Below are positions 15,700 through 31,008 of a stretch of DNA of 64,000 bases, in pieces. The notes under the pieces were generated by a model. It worked only from the letters and a program-made list of their open reading frames with translations. It did not search any database and was not told the origin of the DNA. This DNA comes from Candidatus Woesearchaeota archaeon. GTDB lineage: Archaea > Nanobdellota > Nanobdellia > Woesearchaeales > UBA10216. Positions within the stretch are counted from its first letter, which is position 1, and each line of letters starts with the position of its first letter. The stretch covers positions 483,005 to 547,004 of the forward strand of contig JACPTG010000001.1 of assembly GCA_016192905.1 (NCBI GenBank). Direction: 5' to 3'. The translations under genes were made by a program, and so were the position numbers.

Positions 15700-17241
15700 C
15701 TACCGCTTCCCATCCCTCTCCTCCCTGACCAAAGTGGAGGCCCGGTAAAGCGAGTCAAAAGTCCCTGCATCAGTCCAGTGGCCCTTCAGGATGCTGTAAG
15801 CAAGGGTTCCCCTCTTAATATACTGGTTGTTGACATCGGTAATCTCATACTCGCCCCTGGCAGAAGGCTTAAGGCCGCGGATGATGTCAAAGACATTCGG
15901 AGAGTACATGTAAATGCCCGTAACAGCCAGGTTGCTCTTCGGCTTCGCCGGCTTCTCCTCAATGCCAATAATCCTCTTAGACTGGAGCTCTGCAACCCCA
16001 AAGCGATAGGCGTCATCCACCTCCTTAAGGAGAATTCGGGCCTCCTCAGAGCCGTTCTTGAAGGCCTCAAGCTCAGCGCCAATCCTGTCGGTGAAGATGT
16101 TATCGCCAAGAATCACCACAAACTTGTCCCTAGCCACGAAATCTTCACATAACGACAGGGCCTGCGCAATGCCACCCGCGCCGTCCTGAACCTTATAGGT
16201 TATATCCACTCCAAAGTCCTTCCCAGAGCCAAGCAGCTTCATGAAGTCGCCGGCGCACTCATGCCCTGTAACAATCATGATTTTCCTGATGCCTGAATCA
16301 ACAAGCGAGAAAAGCGGATAGAAAATCATCGGCTTGTCATGGACAGGAAGAAGGTGCTTGTTCGTCACCTTTGTAATAGGGCTAAGGCGGGAGCCAGTTC
16401 CGCCAGCAAGAATCACGCCCTTCACATTAACCAAGCCCATGTAATCCTTCAGAGCCTCCTGCCACGGCCTCAAAGGCTCAAGCTTTGTGTTTATGAGGAT
16501 TGAAAACTTGGGCCTCGGAGCAGGCCTGTTAAGCTGGCTGCTTGTAATCGGGTTAATTGGCGTCTTCAGCCCGGCAAGCCGCACAATCTCCCTTGCAAAC
16601 TCAAACCAGCTGCATGAGCCTGAATTTGTTACGTGATAAACGCCGTAGTCGTAGCCCTGTATGATATCCCGAATCTTCAAGGCCACGTCCATGCTGTAGC
16701 TTGGGCAGCCAACCTGGTCATCAACCACCGCAAGGCTGTCACGCTCCCTTGCCAGTCGGAGAATCGTGTCAACAAAATTTTTCCCATGCCTGCCAAACAG
16801 CCATGAAGTCCTTACAATGAAATACTTGTCAAGGTGCTCCTTCACCAGAGCCTCGGCCCTGGCCTTTGCCCGGCCATGCTCATTAAGGGGGTTTGGAGGG
16901 TCAAACTCAGTGTAGCCCCTCTGCTGGCCGTCAAAAACATAGTCAGTGCTTACGTGCAACAGCGCGGCGCTGGAAAGCCTGCAGGCCTCTGCTATGTATC
17001 CGACAGACTCAGCATTCACCAACATGTTCAGTTCCTTATTTGACTCGGCGCCGTCAACGTCCGTGTAAGCCGCGGCATTGATAACCACATCAGGCTTCAG
17101 GCTGCCAATCCTGCTGATGACCTCGGGCTTTTTTGTTATATCCAGCTCCTTCCTCGACCACGCAGTAAGACTCTCATTGGCAAAAACCCTCTGCAAGTCC
17201 TTCCCGAGCAGGCCATTTGCGCCCAGCAACAGAATCCTCAT
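15700..17241 (-). CDS. RmlD-RmlA fusion: dTDP-4-dehydrorhamnose reductase domain plus sugar-1-phosphate nucleotidyltransferase domain
   Basis: The 513-residue frame joins two enzymes of the dTDP-rhamnose pathway. Residues 1-268 form an RmlD-like SDR domain, with GANGLLGKDL at 7-16, the VSTDYVFDG motif at 97-105 and VDDQVGCPSY at 173-182. Residues 269-513 form an RmlA-type glucose-1-phosphate thymidylyltransferase, with LAGGTGSRLSPIT at 278-290, HDKPMIFYPL and LGDNIF. The SDR catalytic Tyr expected at position 122 is His (NEHGRAK), while Lys126 is kept, so the reductase domain may be altered. An ATG at codon 269 could also start a separate RmlA. It overlaps rmlB by 4 nt. Confidence 0.88.
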   Translation of the reverse strand: MRILLLGANGLLGKDLQRVFANESLTAWSRKELDITKKPEVISRIGSLKPDVVINAAAYTDVDGAESNKELNMLVNAESVGYIAEACRLSSAALLHVSTDYVFDGQQRGYTEFDPPNPLNEHGRAKARAEALVKEHLDKYFIVRTSWLFGRHGKNFVDTILRLARERDSLAVVDDQVGCPSYSMDVALKIRDIIQGYDYGVYHVTNSGSCSWFEFAREIVRLAGLKTPINPITSSQLNRPAPRPKFSILINTKLEPLRPWQEALKDYMGLVNVKGVILAGGTGSRLSPITKVTNKHLLPVHDKPMIFYPLFSLVDSGIRKIMIVTGHECAGDFMKLLGSGKDFGVDITYKVQDGAGGIAQALSLCEDFVARDKFVVILGDNIFTDRIGAELEAFKNGSEEARILLKEVDDAYRFGVAELQSKRIIGIEEKPAKPKSNLAVTGIYMYSPNVFDIIRGLKPSARGEYEITDVNNQYIKRGTLAYSILKGHWTDAGTFDSLYRASTLVREERDGKR

Positions 17242-18263
17242 GCCGCATCACCCAGCCCATGCCTCTCATGATAATGCCTTTTATAATACTCCAGAAACTC
17301 GCCGCTCTTCAGCCTCTGCCACCAGCCAGCATTCCCCCGATACCAGCCGATTGTCTCTGACAAGGCCTTCCCGAACTCATACTCAGGATGCCAGCCAAGC
17401 TGCCTTATCTTGGCAGCCTCCACAGAATACCGCTTGTCATGCCCTGGCCTGTCCTTCACAAACTTAATCAATGAACTGGGCTTGTGAAGCCCGGCCAGAA
17501 TCATCTCTGTAATCTGAAGGTTTGTAAGCTCATTGCCAGCGCCTATGTTATAAACCTCCCCTGACTTGCCCCTGTCAATCACAGCGAGAATTGCCCGGCA
17601 GTTGTCAATCACATAAAGCCAGTCCCTCACCTGCTGGCCATCGCCGTACACAGGAAGCGGCTTATTCTCCATGGCATTCGTAATGAAAAGCGGGATGAGC
17701 TTCTCAGGATGCTGAAACGGGCCGAAGTTGTTGCTGCTGCGCGTAACAAGGACAGGAAGCCCATACGTTGTAAAGTAACTTTTCGCCAGCAGTTCCGCAG
17801 CTGCCTTGCTGGACGAATAAGGGCTGGAAGGGGAAAGCATGGAATTCTCAAAAAAAGAGCCCTCGGAAATGCTGCCATACACCTCATCAGTGCTAATCTG
17901 AACAAACCCGCAGTCATATTTTCTGGCTGTCTCCAAAAGAGTATATGCGCCAAAGACATCAGTTCTTATGAAACTTCCAGGCTCATTGATAGAGCGGTCA
18001 ACATGGCTCTCGGCAGCGAAGTTTATTATCAGGTCAGCGCCATCGGCGGCAGCCTCAACCACCTCGCGGTCGCAGATGTCACCCTTCACAAAAGTATAGC
18101 GCCTGTCACCCTCAACATCCCTCAAATTTTCAATGTTGCCCGCATAAGTGAGCTTGTCCAGGTTGACAATCTCAGAGTCCTTCCTTTCCCTGAGAAGCAG
18201 CCTGATGAAATTGCTGCCAATAAAGCCAGCGCCGCCAGTAACAAGAAATTTCACCTCAGCCAC
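17238..18263 (-). CDS. rmlB: dTDP-glucose 4,6-dehydratase
   Basis: The protein is 341 residues from a GTG at 18263. A longer frame exists, but conserved sequence starts with [15 protein letters not shown], and the GTG overlaps the rmlC stop by a few bases, as in other operon joints here. Diagnostic motifs are the NAD glycine motif, STDEVYGS, the Tyr-x3-Lys in SPYSSSKAAAE, and RSSNNFGPFQHPEKLIP. The enzyme converts dTDP-glucose to dTDP-4-keto-6-deoxyglucose, the second step of rhamnose synthesis. A second GTG nine bases on is an alternative start. Confidence 0.93.
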   Translation of the reverse strand: MAEVKFLVTGGAGFIGSNFIRLLLRERKDSEIVNLDKLTYAGNIENLRDVEGDRRYTFVKGDICDREVVEAAADGADLIINFAAESHVDRSINEPGSFIRTDVFGAYTLLETARKYDCGFVQISTDEVYGSISEGSFFENSMLSPSSPYSSSKAAAELLAKSYFTTYGLPVLVTRSSNNFGPFQHPEKLIPLFITNAMENKPLPVYGDGQQVRDWLYVIDNCRAILAVIDRGKSGEVYNIGAGNELTNLQITEMILAGLHKPSSLIKFVKDRPGHDKRYSVEAAKIRQLGWHPEYEFGKALSETIGWYRGNAGWWQRLKSGEFLEYYKRHYHERHGLGDAA

Positions 18264-18720
18264 CCTTCCCTGCCTTCCACCTAAAGGGGATGTCCGGACT
18301 GTCAAAAGGCTTCCTGAACTCATCAGGCTGAGCCCTGTTATAGGGATGAGTTGGAATGTTTATCACGATGCAAGGCTCATCTTCCGCACACTCAAACCCA
18401 TGGTAAACGCCCTCAGGAATCCTGACAAGCAAAGGATTTTCAGGGCCAAGAATGAACTCCTGGACTTTCCCAAAAGTTGAGGAACCCTTCCTGCCGTCAT
18501 AGAGGCCAAGCCTAAGCCTCCCCTGGATGCACGCCATATTATCAACCTGAACCTTATGCAAGTGCCACGCCTTAGCAAAGCCTGGATTGCAGGTCGTCAT
18601 GTAAACCTGGCCAAACCTGTAAAACAGGGCGTCATCAGAACGCAACAGCTCCATAAGCACGCCCCTCTCATCAGCATGACTGACCAGCTGCTTCACCTGA
18701 ACCCCCACTATCACGCACAA
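18256..18720 (-). CDS. rmlC: dTDP-4-dehydrorhamnose 3,5-epimerase-like cupin
   Basis: The frame encodes 154 residues from a TTG at 18720; nearby GTG codons (18714, 18708, 18696) are alternatives. Family signs are HADERGVLMELLRSDD near the N-terminus, AWHLHKVQVDNMACIQGRLRLGLYDGR in the middle (His of the active site), and IPEGVYHGFECAEDEPCIVINIPTHPYN. It is the first gene of the rmlC-rmlB-rmlDA operon and is divergent from the RHH-nucleotidyltransferase gene, with 60 bp between them carrying a TATA box and palindromes. Confidence 0.87.
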   Translation of the reverse strand: MCVIVGVQVKQLVSHADERGVLMELLRSDDALFYRFGQVYMTTCNPGFAKAWHLHKVQVDNMACIQGRLRLGLYDGRKGSSTFGKVQEFILGPENPLLVRIPEGVYHGFECAEDEPCIVINIPTHPYNRAQPDEFRKPFDSPDIPFRWKAGKGG

Positions 18721-18734
18721 AGCGGGACCGAAAC

Positions 18735-18748
18735 AAATATAAATACTT
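18735..18748. promoter_or_regulatory. Shared TATA region of the divergent rml / RHH-nucleotidyltransferase promoters
   Basis: An AT-rich AAATATAAATAC block lies 15-28 nt upstream of rmlC on the minus strand and 33-46 nt upstream of the ATG at 18781 on the plus strand, so it can serve one or both promoters. Confidence 0.5.
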
Positions 18749-18753
18749 TGTTG

Positions 18754-18780
18754 TTACTTAAGTAATACTCTCGTATTACT
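18754..18780. promoter_or_regulatory. Palindromic operator abutting the RHH-nucleotidyltransferase start codon
   Basis: Two overlapping inverted repeats are visible. TTACTTAAGTAA (18754-18765) is a perfect 12-bp palindrome. AGTAATAC at 18761-18768 pairs with GTATTACT at 18773-18780 across a 4-nt spacer. The second ends exactly at the base before the ATG. Multiple AGTAA half-sites suit a ribbon-helix-helix protein, the fold encoded by the adjoining gene, so autorepression and control of rmlC are likely (inference). Confidence 0.7.
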
Positions 18781-19605
18781 ATGAAGACGCGGATATCAGT
18801 GTCTATTGACAGGGAAGTCCTCTCCAGGCTGGACAGGGAAGTTGACAACGTAAAGGTATTCTCAAGGTCTGAGGCAATAGAGAAAATAATAGAAGCCCAC
18901 GTGTCTGAAAAGAAGAAGTGCATAATACTCGCAGGAGGCCCGCCTGAAAAGCTTTACATAAAGGAGCTTGGCTGCTACAGGCCCCTGGTGAAAGTGAAGG
19001 GGCACACGCTGATAGAGGACATAATCAGAAAGGCAAGGAAGGCAAACTACAGCGAAATACTGATAATAGGCTCCAAGGAATTGCTGTCCGCCATATACAG
19101 CGCCATCGGCGACGGCAAGGCAGTGGACGTAACAATTGAATACCTTGAAGAAAAAGAGCCGCTCGGCTCAGGCAAGACGCTGGCCATGGCAAGGCAGCAA
19201 ATAAAAAACACCTTCCTTTTCATGCCATGCGACCACTACTTTGAGATAAACCTTGAAGAGGTCGAGGCATACCACAAGAAGAACAGGCAGACAGCAACAC
19301 TGGTCGTTTACTCAGGCACAGAGCAGGAATGGAACCAAAGCTCAATAGTCAGCCTTGAAGGGAACATCGTGACCAAATACATTGAAAAGCCGAAGAAAGC
19401 TGAAACGCACCTCACCGCGCTGATGATAGGCTTCGCCGAGCCGGAAATATTCAGCCACATACCTGCAGGAAGGATAAACTGGAGCCTCCAAGAAAACATA
19501 TTCGCAGAGCTGGCAAAGCAAAGAAAGCTTGTAGGATACCTGTACTCTGGCAAGTGGAAGAACGTGCACTCCAAAAAAGACGCCGAAGAGCTAAGCAGCC
19601 AATAG
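18781..19605 (+). CDS. RHH DNA-binding domain fused to degenerate sugar-phosphate nucleotidyltransferase domain (paralogue 1)
   Basis: The 274-residue protein has a MetJ/Arc-type ribbon-helix-helix domain at residues 1-45: a beta strand (RISVSID), a helix, then FSRSEAIEKIIEAHV. Residues 46-274 resemble a sugar-1-phosphate nucleotidyltransferase, with LAGG at 50-53, FMPCDHYFEINL in place of the usual GD motif, and an IEKPKK segment. The Gly-x-Gly-Thr-Arg loop after LAGG is lost (PPEKLY), so catalysis is doubtful and ligand sensing more likely. It is divergent from the rml operon with palindromes abutting its start. The best reading is a sugar-nucleotide-responsive regulator. A paralogue sits at 27206. 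Confidence 0.83.
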   Translation: MKTRISVSIDREVLSRLDREVDNVKVFSRSEAIEKIIEAHVSEKKKCIILAGGPPEKLYIKELGCYRPLVKVKGHTLIEDIIRKARKANYSEILIIGSKELLSAIYSAIGDGKAVDVTIEYLEEKEPLGSGKTLAMARQQIKNTFLFMPCDHYFEINLEEVEAYHKKNRQTATLVVYSGTEQEWNQSSIVSLEGNIVTKYIEKPKKAETHLTALMIGFAEPEIFSHIPAGRINWSLQENIFAELAKQRKLVGYLYSGKWKNVHSKKDAEELSSQ

Positions 19606-19697: not shown

Positions 19698-21610
<1,913 letters not shown>

Positions 21611-24192: not shown

Positions 24193-25131
24193 TCACTGCC
24201 TTTGCTGCTGGAACCAGCCTATTGTCATCCTCAGGCCGTCCTCAAGACTGACCCTCGGGCTCCAGCCCAGAAGCTGCCTTGCCCGCGTTATGTCAGGCCG
24301 CCTGGTCCTGGGGTCATCCGGGGGAAGGTCCTTGAAGACTATCCTGCTCCTGCTCCCGGTCATCTCAATGATAAGCCTTGCGAACTCAAGAATTGAATGC
24401 TCGTCAGGGTTGCCAAGGTTTACAGGCTCATTAATCCTGGAAAGCATAAGCCTGACTATGCCATCCACTAAGTCGGAAATATAGCAGAAGCTCCTCGTAT
24501 GGCTGCCGTCACCATAAACAGTCAAAGGCTCACTGGCCAGGGCCTGGCCTATGAAGTTTGGAACAGCGCGGCCGTCACTAAGACGCATATGAGGGCCAAA
24601 GGTGTTGAAAATCCTCGCAATCTTGGTATCAATCCCATGGGTGCGATGATAAGCCATGGTAATTGCCTCAGCAAACCTCTTGGCCTCGTCATAAACGCCC
24701 CTGGGGCCAACCGGATTGACGTTCCCCCAGTAAGACTCATGCTGCGGGTGAACAAGGGGATCGCCGTAAACCTCGCTTGTTGAGGCGAGCAGGAAAACGG
24801 CGTCGTTCTTCTTCGCCAGGCCCAGAGCATTATGAGTGCCCATCGCCCCAACCTTCAAAGTTGGAATCGGATAACGCATGTAGTCAACAGGGCTGGCAGG
24901 GCTGGCAAAATGCAGGACAAAGTCAACCTTATCCCTGTAATCAATCCTTTGGACGACGTTGTGATTTACAAACTCAAAATTGGAATTGCCTGCAAACTCA
25001 CTGATATTCGAAAGAGAGCCTGTTATGAGATTATCAACGCACACCACCCTAAAGCCGCGGCCCAGAAGCGCAGCGCAGAGATGCCTGCCGATAAAACCCG
25101 CGCCGCCAGTAATCACTACAGTCTGCGCCAA
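24193..25131 (-). CDS. UDP-glucuronate decarboxylase-like SDR
   Basis: The 312-residue protein has [21 protein letters not shown], the Tyr-x3-Lys in [11 protein letters not shown] and the [19 protein letters not shown] motif, followed by [14 protein letters not shown]. Together these are the pattern of UDP-glucuronate decarboxylase (UXS), which makes UDP-xylose. It is the third gene in the operon after UDP-glucose dehydrogenase, whose product UDP-glucuronate is the UXS substrate, and it overlaps the nucleotidyltransferase gene by 16 nt. This context makes the decarboxylase function more likely than a simple epimerase. Confidence 0.85.
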
Positions 25132-25856
25132 TGCTCCTCAGCCTCCCTGAGCTGGTCATGGCTCCCGATGTCAAACCACCTCTCTGAAAAGACAAAGCCG
25201 TAAACACTCTTCCTTGAGGAAAGCCATCTTATGAAGTCGCCAAGATTGTCGGGCTTCCTGTTCTCGCGGATGCACTTCTCAAGCTCTGCCAAGTCCTCCC
25301 TTGTGAAAAAATAGCACGCAGTACTCGCCAGCGAACTTTTCGGCCTGGCGGGCTTCTCCTCAAAACCAACAATCCTGAATTCGCTGTCAACCGACGCAAC
25401 ACCATACCTGCCAGAGGCTTTAGATGGATCCTTCAAGTCATGCAACGCCACCACAGAAGCGGCCCTGGACCTGAAAAACCTGAAAAGGTCAACAAGGCTG
25501 AAATCAAAAAGATTGTCCCCTGCAATAACGAGCACGTCATCATTGACATTAGCCGACTTGACCGCAAAATCTATGTCGCCTATCGCGCCCAGCCGGTCAT
25601 CATTGGAGCTTGAGCCATCATTGAGCACAACCAGGGGAATTGGCGAAGTGTAGCCCGCAACCCAATCAAGAAAATTCTTATAGTATTTTTCATTGGTTAC
25701 CAGAACAATCTCCTCAACGCGGGGCAACTCGGAAATCCTAAGCAAAATATGCTCAATAAGAGGCTTCCCTGCGACAGGTATCAGCGGCTTCGGGGTTGAC
25801 TCGGTTATCGGATGCAGGCGGGTGCCATAGCCGGCAGCAAGAACAATCGCCTTCAT
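25116..25856 (-). CDS. Sugar-1-phosphate nucleotidyltransferase
   Basis: This 246-residue enzyme has the intact signature [20 protein letters not shown], with the catalytic Arg and Lys, [11 protein letters not shown] (metal-binding Asp) and [14 protein letters not shown]. It belongs to the glucose-1-phosphate uridylyl/thymidylyl transferase group. It sits between ugd and the UXS-like gene with short overlaps, so it probably supplies UDP-glucose to Ugd (inference). Unlike the two RHH-fused relatives in this window, its catalytic loop is complete. Confidence 0.9.
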
Positions 25857-27151
25857 CTTCCAATGCCCACATAACCAAAGCCGTGGGCCCTCATCTCATC
25901 AGGCTCATAAATGTTCCGCGCGTCAACGATGCTTGGAGAATTCATAAGCGACTTCAACCGGACCCGGTCAAGCTCCCTAAACTCATCCCACTCAGTAACC
26001 ACAACGATGCAATCCGCGGCCTTCGCAGCCTCATAAGGGTTTGAGGCGTACTCAACATTCTTCAGCAGCTTCCTGGCATTATTCATGGCAACCGGGTCAA
26101 AAACCGCGACTTGAACGCCATGCCTCTGCAGCTCGCTGATAATGACAATTGACGGCGCATCGCGCATATCATCAGTCTTCGGCTTGAACGAAAGCCCCCA
26201 GACAGCAACCTTTTTCCCTTTTGGATCACCGAGAACGCCAAGGACTTTTCTCGCCACATAAGCCTTCTGCAACTCATTCATCCTGTCCACTCCATCAAGA
26301 ATTCCTGCAGGGAGGCTCCTGGACTTCAGCATATGAACCAGCGCCTTTACGTCCTTAGGGAAACAGCTGCCACCATAGCCGGCACCTGCCTGCAGAAAGC
26401 GGGGCCCAATCCTGCTGTCCAGGCCAATGCCCTTTGCAACGACCTTAACATCCGCGCCCACAGCCTCGCAAAGCCTTGAAACCTCATTCATAAATGAAAT
26501 CCTTGTGGCCAGCATGGCATTGCTCACATACTTGACAAGCTCAGCAGTGTTTATGTCGGTAACCATTATCGGCCTGCCAGTCCTCTCGATAGGCTTGTAA
26601 ATGTCTATCATAATCTTCTTCGCAGCCTCACTCTCAGCACCTATAATGACGCGGTCAGGCAGCATAAAGTCGTGGACTGCCTCGCCCTCCCTCAAAAATT
26701 CGGGGTTGGAGACAACGTCAAAAGCCAGCTTTGACCTCTGGCTTGCTGCAATAGCCTCCCTGATTTTGGATGATGAGCCAACAGGAACAGTGCTCTTCAC
26801 AACCACAACCTTATAGCTATCCATGGCAGCTCCGATTTCCCGGGCCGCAGCAAGCACATAAGACATGTCGCCCGAGCCATCAGCGGCAGAAGGCGTGTTG
26901 ACAGCAATGAAAATAATGTCAGAATCATGAACAGCCCGCTTCACGTCCACTGTAAACCTGAGGCGGCCCTCGCGCGAATTAAGCTCAACAAGGTCCCTCA
27001 GGCCAGGCTCATAGAAAGGCAAGATGCCCTGATTAAGCTTTTCAATCCTCTCCCTGTCAATATCCATGCAGGTTACCTCATTCCCAAGGTTAGCCAGGCA
27101 GGCACCTGTGACAAGACCCACGTAACCGCAGCCTATGACTGAAATCCTCAT
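25853..27151 (-). CDS. ugd: UDP-glucose 6-dehydrogenase (UDP-glucose/GDP-mannose dehydrogenase family)
   Basis: The 432-residue protein has the NAD-binding motif IGCGYVGLVTGACLA, the substrate segment SNPEFLREGEAVHDF, the central GAGYGGSCFPKDVKAL with catalytic Cys, and a C-terminal domain with WGLSFKPKTDDMRDAPS. The length is normal. It oxidises UDP-glucose to UDP-glucuronate with two NAD molecules. It is the first gene of the three-gene operon and is divergent from the second RHH-nucleotidyltransferase gene, 54 bp away. Confidence 0.94.
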   Translation of the reverse strand: MRISVIGCGYVGLVTGACLANLGNEVTCMDIDRERIEKLNQGILPFYEPGLRDLVELNSREGRLRFTVDVKRAVHDSDIIFIAVNTPSAADGSGDMSYVLAAAREIGAAMDSYKVVVVKSTVPVGSSSKIREAIAASQRSKLAFDVVSNPEFLREGEAVHDFMLPDRVIIGAESEAAKKIMIDIYKPIERTGRPIMVTDINTAELVKYVSNAMLATRISFMNEVSRLCEAVGADVKVVAKGIGLDSRIGPRFLQAGAGYGGSCFPKDVKALVHMLKSRSLPAGILDGVDRMNELQKAYVARKVLGVLGDPKGKKVAVWGLSFKPKTDDMRDAPSIVIISELQRHGVQVAVFDPVAMNNARKLLKNVEYASNPYEAAKAADCIVVVTEWDEFRELDRVRLKSLMNSPSIVDARNIYEPDEMRAHGFGYVGIGR

Positions 27152-27183
27152 GAGGCCGGGATGCCCGAAAGGTATAAATATCT

Positions 27184-27207
27184 TACCTTTATCCTACCTT
27201 ATAGGAT
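27184..27207. promoter_or_regulatory. Operator-like repeats overlapping the second RHH-nucleotidyltransferase start codon
   Basis: TACCTT occurs at 27184-27189 and again at 27195-27200 (11-bp period). The inverted repeat ATCCTA (27191-27196) / TAGGAT (27202-27207) runs into the ATG at 27206. A TATA-like GGTATAAATA lies just upstream. The arrangement parallels the palindrome at 18761-18780 in front of the paralogue, and suggests autoregulation plus control of the divergent ugd operon. Confidence 0.6.
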
Positions 27208-28006
27208 GAAACAGAAGATAAGCATAACAATAGATGAAAAAATACTAAAGGACATAGACAGCCTCATAGACAACCTGCTCATAAGAAACAGGAGCCAGGC
27301 AATAGAATACCTTGTGAAAAGCTCGCTGGGCGGCCACAGGACAGCGGTAATACTGGCAGGAGGGGATGAAAGGGAACTGGAACTGGCTCCCGGAGCATAC
27401 AGCCCCACGGCAAACATGGGAAAGGCGACCGTGGCAGAAAAGGCTGTGGCCAAGCTAAGGGAAAACGGCTTCAAGGAAATACACTACATAGCCAGGCACA
27501 AGATACTAACCCAGGCATTTAACATACTAAAGGACGGAAGCGGCCACGGAGTAAAAATGCATTACATAGAGGAGAAAAGCTCCAGCGGGACAGCCTCAAC
27601 ACTCAGACTGGTCAAGGGCAAGCTGCGGACAGGCTTCCTGGTGGTCTACGGAGACATACTTTTTGACAAGGTCAACATTGAAGAGCTCTGGAGCCAGCAC
27701 GCCAGAAGCAACTCAATAGCCACAATAATGCTCACCACCTCTGCAAAGCCGGAGGAAAAGGGAACTGTGAAAATGGAGGGCAACAAGGTTCTTGAATTCG
27801 TACAGAAACCAAAAAAATCAGACATACACCTCGTATTCTCGCCCATAATCGCCGCATCTGAAGAGCTGCTGGACCATCAGGGAGCCAGCCTTGAGTACGA
27901 CGTATTCCCAAAACTGGCCTCAAAAGGGCTCCTCCAAGGACACGTAAGCTCAGAGAAGGAAATACACCTGCACAGCATTGAGGACCTAAACAGGATTAAA
28001 AAGTGA
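27206..28006 (+). CDS. RHH DNA-binding domain fused to degenerate sugar-phosphate nucleotidyltransferase domain (paralogue 2)
   Basis: The protein is 266 residues from the ATG at 27206; an upstream in-frame ATG would add 15 non-conserved residues. Residues 1-43 form a ribbon-helix-helix domain with strand KISITID and helix NRSQAIEYLVKSS. The nucleotidyltransferase-like domain begins with LAGG at exactly the same residue numbers (50-53) as paralogue 1, so the two share one ancestral fusion. The catalytic loop is again degenerate (DERELEL), but VVYGDILFDKV and VQKPKKSDIH remain. It is divergent from the ugd operon. A regulator that senses an NDP-sugar is the best reading. Its stop codon overlaps the end of the convergent 5S rRNA. 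Confidence 0.83.
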   Translation: MKQKISITIDEKILKDIDSLIDNLLIRNRSQAIEYLVKSSLGGHRTAVILAGGDERELELAPGAYSPTANMGKATVAEKAVAKLRENGFKEIHYIARHKILTQAFNILKDGSGHGVKMHYIEEKSSSGTASTLRLVKGKLRTGFLVVYGDILFDKVNIEELWSQHARSNSIATIMLTTSAKPEEKGTVKMEGNKVLEFVQKPKKSDIHLVFSPIIAASEELLDHQGASLEYDVFPKLASKGLLQGHVSSEKEIHLHSIEDLNRIKK

Positions 28007-29115: not shown

Positions 29116-29625
29116 ATGTTCATCCGCACCAAGAAAATATACGGCCAAGACTACGCCTACCTGGTAAAGAACACCTGGACAGGAGGCGGGGCAAGGCAGA
29201 AAGTCGCAAAATACCTCGGCAAGGTGCACAGGCCTGAAAAAGTCAGGAACAGGACATTCCAAGAACACATAAGCGGGCAGGGCCCTGAGGACTACTTCAA
29301 CAGCAGGGAATTCAAGGAGATATTAAACGAGCTAATCAAGCTGGAGCTTCACAACCACGGGCTGGATGACCAGTACTATGTCGTGGGAAGCGAATTCAAA
29401 ACCCTGTCTGGAAAAGACATTGTAGTTGCAATGAACACCGGACACTTATGCACTGATACGGTCAAAGTGCTGCATGACTACAAGACAGAAAACGATGACG
29501 GGTTTATGCTTGCCAGCCTTATCACTGCAGCAGGGCTTAATGTTGAGCAGGAAATATTCGTGCTGCTCTTTGAAAAGGCGAAGGCTGAAAGCGCACAGCA
29601 GCCCAAAGGGGAGTTTTATTATTAG
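29116..29625 (+). CDS. Conserved archaeal-type hypothetical protein with IS1634-like N-terminal motif
   Basis: The 169-residue soluble protein starts MFIRTKKIYGQDYAYLVKN and then GGGARQKVAKYLGKVHR. This beta-rich opening resembles the N-terminus of IS1634-type transposases, but the DDE catalytic part is absent and the rest is a different helical domain (about 60-160). It may be a domesticated or independent small domain. A TATA-like AATATAAAAATT lies about 50-60 nt upstream. No function can be assigned. Confidence 0.65.
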   Translation: MFIRTKKIYGQDYAYLVKNTWTGGGARQKVAKYLGKVHRPEKVRNRTFQEHISGQGPEDYFNSREFKEILNELIKLELHNHGLDDQYYVVGSEFKTLSGKDIVVAMNTGHLCTDTVKVLHDYKTENDDGFMLASLITAAGLNVEQEIFVLLFEKAKAESAQQPKGEFYY

Positions 29626-30356
29626 CCTGAAGCATCAAATTCCAACAGATTGTTCCGCAGGGATAAATCCACAATGCTGCTCTTTCCCACATCCAGCAGA
29701 ACATTCCTTGCTATTGAATCAATTAAATCCGGCCGTGAAAGCAGCTTCTCAACTGCCTTTTTTTTAAGCTGCGTTGCCGCTATTTTCCGGCGGCCATACT
29801 GCAATAGTGAGTAAAAATCGCAGGCGTCCTTGTTTTCCTTGTCGGCCTTGTCCCTTTCAAACAGGCATATGGCCTTCAATTCCATCAAAGTATCCATATC
29901 TGCAAGCGGGTAACCATTAACGTTTTTTACGGACACACTCTTTAAGGGGTCCAAATCGTTCCAGCTATGTATTGCTGTGGTTGGCTTATTCGAAAACAAG
30001 TCCAAAAAGACCCTAATCAAATTGTACGGGGGCTCCTTCCTGGACTCAATTATGGAAATGAACTTCCTCTTTTCCCTATGGTAAATTTTTTCGTACCTGA
30101 AGGGCAGGCCATTTTTTTCAAAGCCCAGCCCGAAAATCACCTTTGCAAAGCCCTTCTCGCTGAGAGGATCGAAAAAGAGGTCTATATCCCTTGAGGCAAT
30201 GTAATCCTTACCGAAGGCCTGCCTGTATGCTTCATTTACATAAAAAAAGGCCGCCCATCCGCCAATAATGCAAAAGTTTACCCTTTCCTTCCTGCATGCC
30301 TGACAGATTAAATTGAGTTCGTTAAGTGAAATGTCAGTTTCGGCTGGGTCATACAT
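29622..30356 (-). CDS. AbiEii/MNT-type nucleotidyltransferase, probable toxin
   Basis: This 244-residue protein shows the nucleotidyltransferase motif CIIGGWAAFFY followed by ASRDIDLFFD (Ser-x-Asp-x-Asp metal site), then a helical C-terminal part. This pattern is shared by AbiEii-type toxins and MNT antitoxins. The gene overlaps by 8 nt the upstream gene for an AbiEi-like HTH protein, which is the order of type IV toxin-antitoxin operons (antitoxin first). On that basis it is the toxin. The domain is clear, the toxicity is inference. Confidence 0.75.
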   Translation of the reverse strand: MYDPAETDISLNELNLICQACRKERVNFCIIGGWAAFFYVNEAYRQAFGKDYIASRDIDLFFDPLSEKGFAKVIFGLGFEKNGLPFRYEKIYHREKRKFISIIESRKEPPYNLIRVFLDLFSNKPTTAIHSWNDLDPLKSVSVKNVNGYPLADMDTLMELKAICLFERDKADKENKDACDFYSLLQYGRRKIAATQLKKKAVEKLLSRPDLIDSIARNVLLDVGKSSIVDLSLRNNLLEFDASG

Positions 30357-31008
30357 TTTTCAATTTTTCCCCAATCAGCTTCAGTATTTCCATTCCTGCC
30401 TCCTCCCCGCGGCCGCCATATGACCGCAAGTCTGCACATAACTGCGGCAGGGACACAACGGCCGCCCCCCTGGAATCCCAAACACCTTCAAAGTAACTTT
30501 CATCAACCAAAAAGCACACAATATTTCCATTCCCCTCCGCTGATTGAATGTTCTGGGAGTTAAACACCCTTTGCCACTTCATTAAATCTGTTTTAAGAAT
30601 GTACATATGCGTGTCTGCCGGGGCAACATACGGGTGCATTTGTTCAGTGGCTGAGAAGAGCGTAAAGGCGTATTTTAAACCGTTAGCCCTCGCTGCATTG
30701 GCTATTTTCAGCATTACATACTGAGGCCTTTCAGCGGCAATAAATTCAGCTTTTTCAAGCTCCCTAATTGAGAAAAGGTAGCCCCATGCGCCAGCAAGCC
30801 TTTCAGGCCTGACCATCCTGATTCCCCGAATACCCCTGCCAGCCGCTGCATACTCGCTTCTGATTAACTTCAGGGCCAGTCTCTTGGCCAGGGATGGGGT
30901 TGTATGGCACTTTTTAGCCAATTCTGAGAAAGTCAGGTTTGGCCTGCCTTCCACTGAATTGACAAGCAACACCCTGATTGCCGAGTTAAGCTTTTCCGAG
31001 ATTAACAT
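30349..31008 (-). CDS. AbiEi-like winged-helix antitoxin/regulator
   Basis: The 219-residue protein has an N-terminal winged helix-turn-helix (about residues 8-60: LTFSELAKKCHTTPSLAKRLALKLI) and a C-terminal region containing AAVVSLPQLCADLRSYGGRGEEAGMEIL, seen in AbiEi-type antitoxins and related DNA-binding proteins. It is directly upstream of, and overlaps, the nucleotidyltransferase gene. The promoter region carries a 20-bp direct repeat that could be its operator. It probably represses the operon and counteracts the toxin. Confidence 0.7.
   Translation of the reverse strand: MLISEKLNSAIRVLLVNSVEGRPNLTFSELAKKCHTTPSLAKRLALKLIRSEYAAAGRGIRGIRMVRPERLAGAWGYLFSIRELEKAEFIAAERPQYVMLKIANAARANGLKYAFTLFSATEQMHPYVAPADTHMYILKTDLMKWQRVFNSQNIQSAEGNGNIVCFLVDESYFEGVWDSRGAAVVSLPQLCADLRSYGGRGEEAGMEILKLIGEKLKNV

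Follow-up and report, generated by a model that had tools for sequence, protein, structure and literature searches.

A ribbon-helix-helix–nucleotidyltransferase fusion divergent from the rml genes of a woesearchaeal genome: a putative autoregulated sensor of sugar nucleotides

The rml locus and its divergent fusion gene

The analyzed DNA (the window) is a stretch of 64,000 nucleotides from a Candidatus Woesearchaeota archaeon. It contains a plus-strand gene coding for a protein in which a ribbon-helix-helix (RHH) domain is joined to a degenerate sugar nucleotidyltransferase (NTase) domain. The gene belongs to class C, one of three classes (A, B, and C) into which these RHH-NTases fall. As had been predicted from the sequence, it is divergent from genes for the synthesis of an NDP-sugar, which were identified as rmlC, rmlB, and an rmlD-rmlA fusion, all on the minus strand. 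The features of this locus are:

15700-17241, minus strand: rmlD-rmlA fusion (TIGR01214 over cut-off at residues 2-268; RmlA models at residues 274-507)
17238-18323, minus strand: rmlB, dTDP-glucose 4,6-dehydratase (TIGR01181, 454 bits, over cut-off)
18256-18720, minus strand: rmlC-like gene, dTDP-4-dehydrorhamnose 3,5-epimerase/sugar cupin (PF00908, 49.8 bits)
18738-18745: TATA-like element TATAAATA, between the divergent starts of rmlC and the regulator gene
18754-18765: overlapping palindrome TTACTTAAGTAA, which contributes one more half-site (three in all), displaced upstream by about one helical turn
18761-18780: proposed operator, the perfect palindrome AGTAATAC-TCTC-GTATTACT, abutting the regulator ATG
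18781-19605, plus strand: class C RHH-NTase (RHH domain, residues 1-44; degenerate sugar nucleotidyltransferase, residues 46-274; from Pfam, PDB profile search, AlphaFold2, and Foldseek)

Comparison of orthologues favors the GTG at 18714, which is therefore the more likely start of rmlC. RmlD and RmlA form one protein of 513 amino acids; they are also fused in genomes G007 and G003, and separate at the more distant loci L133, L134, and L138. On the other side of the regulator gene and convergent to it, positions 19698-21568 contain a GDP-mannose 4,6-dehydratase gene and an SDR reductase gene, which are kept beside the regulator in G007 and G003 and perhaps represent a GDP-deoxysugar pathway adjoining the dTDP one.

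The ORF at 18781-19605 is complete, starts with ATG, and codes for a single protein of 274 amino acids. Residues 46-260 matched PF00483 (NTP_transferase) with 62 bits, above the curated Pfam cut-off of 21.2, and structural comparison with Foldseek (E 1e-18) likewise placed this part of the protein in the sugar nucleotidyltransferase superfamily, the nearest solved structure being RmlA of B. anthracis (3hl3; TMq 0.75, E 1.9e-18). Taken alone, the protein scored 14.3 bits against PF01402 (RHH_1) over residues 4-41, under the Pfam cut-off of 20.5, and NikR models gave weak matches over residues 3-45. The RHH assignment was secured by a profile built from the N-terminal regions of 19 family members, which retrieved the NikR proteins of E. 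coli (1q5v, E 8e-7) and P. horikoshii (2bj1, E 2e-6) from the PDB sequences. The AlphaFold2 model (mean pLDDT 92.9) contains helices at residues 11-20 and 29-41, followed by the NTase fold; the best Foldseek alignments extended over about 235-245 columns, as expected with the RHH part outside them. The profile, the Pfam match, and the model thus bear out the two-domain architecture of the original prediction. The N-terminal region is a beta-alpha-alpha domain of the CopG/NikR type, homologous to known RHH proteins, and the protein falls outside the NikR family, since residues 46-274 adopt a nucleotidyltransferase fold and there is no C-terminal nickel-binding regulatory domain.

Mis-joining of a neighboring ORF to the RHH domain in relatives, which the original prediction had named as a possible flaw, was ruled out: the fusion is in a single frame in class C orthologues of 38-74% identity, and recurs in classes A and B, so it is neither a chance event nor a mis-joining. 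One class C orthologue, L142, is broken by a shift of frame within its NTase domain. Between close class C orthologues, dN/dS was about 0.08-0.13 (dN 0.18-0.21; dS 1.3-2.5, a rough figure since dS exceeds 1), which shows purifying selection on the class C RHH-NTase. These values, together with invariant clade-specific residues, ruled out a neutrally decaying pseudogene. A phage or virus origin was also rejected, no relative being found among 2.9 million viral contigs.

Catalytic residues, clades, and gene neighborhoods

The catalytic positions were scored against the RmlA encoded in the same genome, the catalytic Arg, the catalytic Lys, and the Mg-binding Asp residues being given the roles that they have in RmlA. 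The loop reads GGPPEKLYIKELGCYRPL in the 18781-19605 protein and GGTGSRLSPITKVTNKHLL in the genome's own RmlA. In class C, the loop Gly and the catalytic Arg were absent from 12/12 proteins, the catalytic Lys was replaced by Arg in 11/12, and the second, C-terminal Mg-binding Asp by Asn in 12/12; the first Mg-binding Asp was retained in 12/12, and the E-K-P motif was largely retained. Class C therefore keeps only the first Asp of the features that mark an active RmlA-type enzyme (G-x-G-T/S-R loop, Lys, two Asp). The loss of the catalytic loop noted in the original prediction thus extends to the catalytic Arg, the Lys, and the second Mg ligand, and these replacements support a class C NTase domain devoid of catalysis. 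All 15 class B proteins scored carried His at the second Mg-binding Asp, and some had also lost the first (His in 4/15), while class A had mostly kept the Arg (15/17), the Lys (16/17), the first Asp (17/17), and the second Asp (13/17). The class C pocket has a clade-specific CDHYFE motif, and N-x-H replaces D-x-G. Its base-specificity residues match neither RmlA nor any single known type, so the ligand is not readable from them. A pocket altered in this way and still under selection is what a sensor would be expected to look like.

The genome codes for three RHH-NTases, one of each class. The two in the window (class C and a class B paralogue at 27206-28006) do not have an intact loop; the class A copy, located on another contig with its start at G000:C6:145475 (L003:1501-2337), does (GGRGVRLAPITHELPKPL). 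Neither the paralogue, nor the intact copy, nor the operator formed part of the original prediction. The class A gene lies directly 5' of a phosphomannomutase-like gene and is preceded by TCATAC-type sites; it is a candidate for a self-regulating (trigger) enzyme.

A tree of 64 members resolved class A (33 rows, support 97), class B (24 rows, 98), and class C (5 rows, 99), with B and C joined (94). When ordinary NTases were included as outgroup, the RHH-NTases grouped together (95), and B and C formed one clade (99). Since B and C are one clade, they probably share a single loss of catalysis, and separate further losses probably took place within class A, for example in L066 and L069.

The 18781-19605 protein had a match in 43 genomes (59 relatives searched), and a B+C profile at E 1e-15 matched 212 of 371 genomes in a phylum-wide sample, a count that possibly includes some plain NTases. 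Scanned for class C alone, 84,980 named species genomes yielded 12 loci from Woesearchaeota, Parvarchaeota, Micrarchaeota, Burarchaeum, Aenigmatarchaeota, and an uncultured archaeon, nearly all adjoined by sugar-nucleotide genes. The search for the architecture and its neighbors suggested with the original prediction thus showed that it recurs in many DPANN genomes, often beside sugar-nucleotide genes. The original prediction knew of no characterized regulator of this kind, and our searches of open-licence papers, including those on Woesearchaeota, DPANN, and sugar-nucleotide sensing, likewise found no account of an RHH domain combined with a nucleotidyltransferase.

The neighborhoods differ among the classes. 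Flanking sequence sufficed for 15 class C genes: 10 of them are divergent from rmlA, rmlB, or rmlC, and two more face an SDR gene; the exceptions include L135, which faces a dehydrogenase gene, L139, which faces an SDR gene, and L140 and L141, where an RmlA-like gene and a dehydrogenase gene have the same orientation as the class C gene. Class B genes are divergent from a nucleotide-sugar dehydrogenase gene in 40 of 52 cases. In class A, a phosphomannomutase gene is next downstream on the same strand in 20/35, and a divergent neighbor of the B or C kind was found in 0/35.

Proposed operators and their match to the RHH strand

The class C palindrome AGTAATAC-TCTC-GTATTACT has one exact match in the genome, at this locus. 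The next best match has two mismatches, and the 3 kb around it are without a recognizable sugar gene. A 7-mer GTATTAC or GTAATAC was present between -75 and +12 of the start at all 13 class C loci compared (from Woesearchaeota, Parvarchaeota, Micrarchaeota/Burarchaeum, and Aenigmatarchaeota), versus 5 of 2010 AT-rich control windows from the same loci; the half-sites are mostly spaced by 10-11 bp. The TATA-like element is centered 27.5 nt away from the GTG favored for rmlC and 39.5 nt away from the ATG of the regulator gene, and at L138 and L142 such an element lies about 27 nt from both starts. The element at 18738-18745 would probably serve both directions, and the rmlC and regulator transcripts may be leaderless.

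A comparable arrangement was found at the class B locus of the window:

24193-25131: epimerase, after the dehydrogenase and the NTase
25116-25856: NTase, after the dehydrogenase
25853-27151, minus strand: dehydrogenase for nucleotide sugars (UDP-glucose type), in divergent orientation to the class B gene
27179-27202: putative class B operator TATCTTACCTTTATCCTACCTTAT; most class B genes have it conserved in their upstream region
27206-28006, plus strand: degenerate class B paralogue of the RHH-NTase

An ORF call beginning at 27161 overextends the class B gene: the initial 15 codons of this call represent the class B operator and the TATA box translated in frame, which places the true start of the protein at 27206. 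The sequence TATCTTACCTTTATCCTACCTTAT is the only site in the genome with up to three mismatches, and a motif TATAAATATCTTACCnTTATCCTACTTTATsCGATA was present in most class B upstream regions, including those from other orders. With a single exact class C operator and a single class B operator in the genome, a regulon of many targets is unsupported. Further along the window, two adjoining minus-strand genes (29622-31008), one with a nucleotidyltransferase-like GGWAAFF motif and the other winged-helix-looking, resemble by eye an AbiE-type toxin-antitoxin pair; neither had a Pfam match at E 0.01.

Over 103 RHH-NTases, relatives included, the half-site varied with the three residues of the RHH strand that face the DNA (R4, S6, and S8 in the 18781-19605 protein). 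An RSS or RST strand occurred with GTATTAC in 16 of 17 proteins versus 4 of 86 others (Fisher p 4e-14), KST with TCCTAC in 46/54 versus 2/49 (p 3e-18), and RTT with TCATAC in 24/30 versus 12/73 (p 2e-9). In four proteins whose strand is atypical of the NTase clade to which they belong, the operator agrees with the strand: L143 (B-type NTase, RTT, TCATAC), L149 and L150:3968 (A-type NTase, RST, GTATTAC), and L150:5702 (best match to class C, KST, TCCTAC). One RST protein, L065, had no site. Part of the association is due to shared descent; the independent pairs on supported branches number 2-4 and are almost all concordant, too few for significance. The E. coli NikR strand is RVTITL, and NikR binds GTATGA-N16-TCATAC (PMC7055735), so that the half-site of RTT-type proteins equals the known NikR half-site. 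Since NikR is not among the 103 proteins counted, it provides an outside check on the rule.

The conserved operator, and the matching changes in strand and operator, support the role of DNA-binding regulator assigned in the original prediction; DNA binding by the RHH domain is, by inference from sequence, well supported. RHH proteins of the CopG/NikR type read palindromic or tandem operators with alternating residues of the strand, and the comparative match of strand triplet and half-site agrees with this. A wider reading takes all of these genes as one regulator family of several DPANN phyla, in which class A proteins would be active, RHH-bearing trigger enzymes that control their own production, classes B and C dedicated pseudo-enzyme sensors for the dehydrogenase and dTDP-rhamnose operons, respectively, with one operator apiece in this genome, and the paralogues would be kept apart by a three-residue strand-operator code (RTT-TCATAC, KST-TCYTAC, RSS/RST-GTATTAC). 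We regard the chances of this joint reading as evenly balanced.

Proposed regulation of the rml genes and alternative explanations

In the reading that we favor, and consider likely, the class C gene would code for an autoregulated one-component transcription factor with a single target, in which a pseudo-enzyme NTase domain acts as the sensor of a sugar nucleotide. Very probably, this protein switches the adjoining sugar genes in response to what they produce or to a precursor of it. The NikR-like RHH domain would bind GTATTAC/GTAATAC half-sites, separated by about one turn of the helix, in the bidirectional promoter that the regulator and rml share, the non-catalytic pocket would probably bind a compound of the dTDP-rhamnose pathway (an NDP-sugar, a sugar phosphate, or a nucleotide), and binding of this ligand would change the geometry of the dimer or oligomer and hence the affinity for DNA. 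Autorepression is the natural reading for the regulator, because the operator covers its likely transcription start and its start codon. End-product control is proposed for rml, because the operator is situated upstream of the TATA-like element used for rml; judged from this position, abundance of the product would more likely repress than activate rml. The ligand may most naturally be sought in the dTDP-sugar pathway. The role of the NTase domain as ligand sensor, the simplest idea in the original prediction, is well motivated, since its pocket is conserved but catalytically altered, the gene is linked to NDP-sugar genes, and there is a precedent in GMPPA, a non-catalytic sensor of GDP-mannose that regulates GMPPB (PMC11228364).

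Other explanations share parts of this evidence. The RHH domain could repress its own gene and rml with the NTase domain serving as a ligand-free scaffold for dimerization or tetramerization, which would agree with the missing catalytic residues, with the loss of even the first Mg-binding Asp in some class B proteins, and with the ability of RHH repressors to act free of an effector. We consider this unlikely, however, given the strong purifying selection on the NTase domain, the preservation of clade-specific pocket residues (CDHYFE, and N-x-H for D-x-G), and the linkage to sugar-nucleotide genes in classes A, B, and C, which suggests a metabolic signal. The binding of GDP-mannose by non-catalytic GMPPA and its regulation of GMPPB (PMC11228364) could also point to an allosteric partner of RmlA in a GMPPA/GMPPB-like hetero-oligomer, the RHH domain reporting RmlA occupancy or being secondary. 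The GMPPA/GMPPB complex was among the Foldseek matches and rmlA adjoins the gene, but the NTase domain clusters with other RHH-NTases and not with the neighboring RmlA, and the operator and the strand matching put DNA binding at the center, which makes such a partnership improbable. That the protein is a working enzyme with unusual catalytic residues and a moonlighting RHH domain, that is, a trigger enzyme, is scarcely credible: class C deviates at the loop Gly and Arg, at the catalytic Lys, and at the second Mg-binding Asp, and the rml operon itself includes a canonical RmlA, even though the RHH-bearing sister clade A mostly retains the catalytic residues and class C itself has largely kept the first Mg-binding Asp and the E-K-P motif.

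The favored reading, a sugar-nucleotide-sensing transcription factor, resembles several known systems in part. With RmlA and PF00483 proteins the NTase domain shares the fold (residues 46-274, TMq 0.72-0.75), and it differs in lacking the catalytic loop, the Arg, the Lys, and one Mg ligand, in the added RHH domain, and in forming a separate clade. The N-terminal domain is homologous to that of NikR (E 8e-7), and in class A the strand R-x-T-x-T and the half-site TCATAC match the NikR strand and its GTATGA-N16-TCATAC operator; the effector domain, in contrast, has a sugar nucleotidyltransferase fold instead of a nickel-binding one, the targets are sugar-nucleotide genes, and the class C strand and operator are unlike those of NikR. 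In PutA, an RHH domain is fused to a proline-catabolic enzyme that autoregulates a divergent promoter and remains active. PutA thus shares the joining of an RHH domain to a metabolic enzyme and autoregulation of a divergent promoter, but it is an active enzyme of unrelated fold and pathway, to which class A would be the closer functional parallel. GMPPA is likewise a dead sugar NTase retained as NDP-sugar sensor, as class C would be, but it acts on an active paralogue by protein-protein allostery, whereas the output of class C would be transcription.

To our knowledge, there has been almost no study of how DPANN archaea regulate their genes, and few of their regulators have an assigned target and binding site. 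Here the domain structure, target operon, operator, and specificity code could all be read from the DNA. If correct, the proposed regulation would provide a new effector domain for one-component RHH regulators and would clearly exemplify the conversion of an enzyme to a transcriptional sensor, its intact RHH-bearing sister being still present in the same genomes. It would also offer a natural series on the avoidance of cross-talk among RHH paralogues within one cell, and a candidate control point for the building blocks of surface glycans in small archaea. The annotation of an RHH-NTase gene as a sugar nucleotidyltransferase calls for caution, since the encoded enzyme can be dead. In four members of the class A group (L066:6494, L068:6848, L059:6571, and L069:6274), the catalytic loop is partly lost or altered, and these proteins are possible further conversions from enzyme to sensor.
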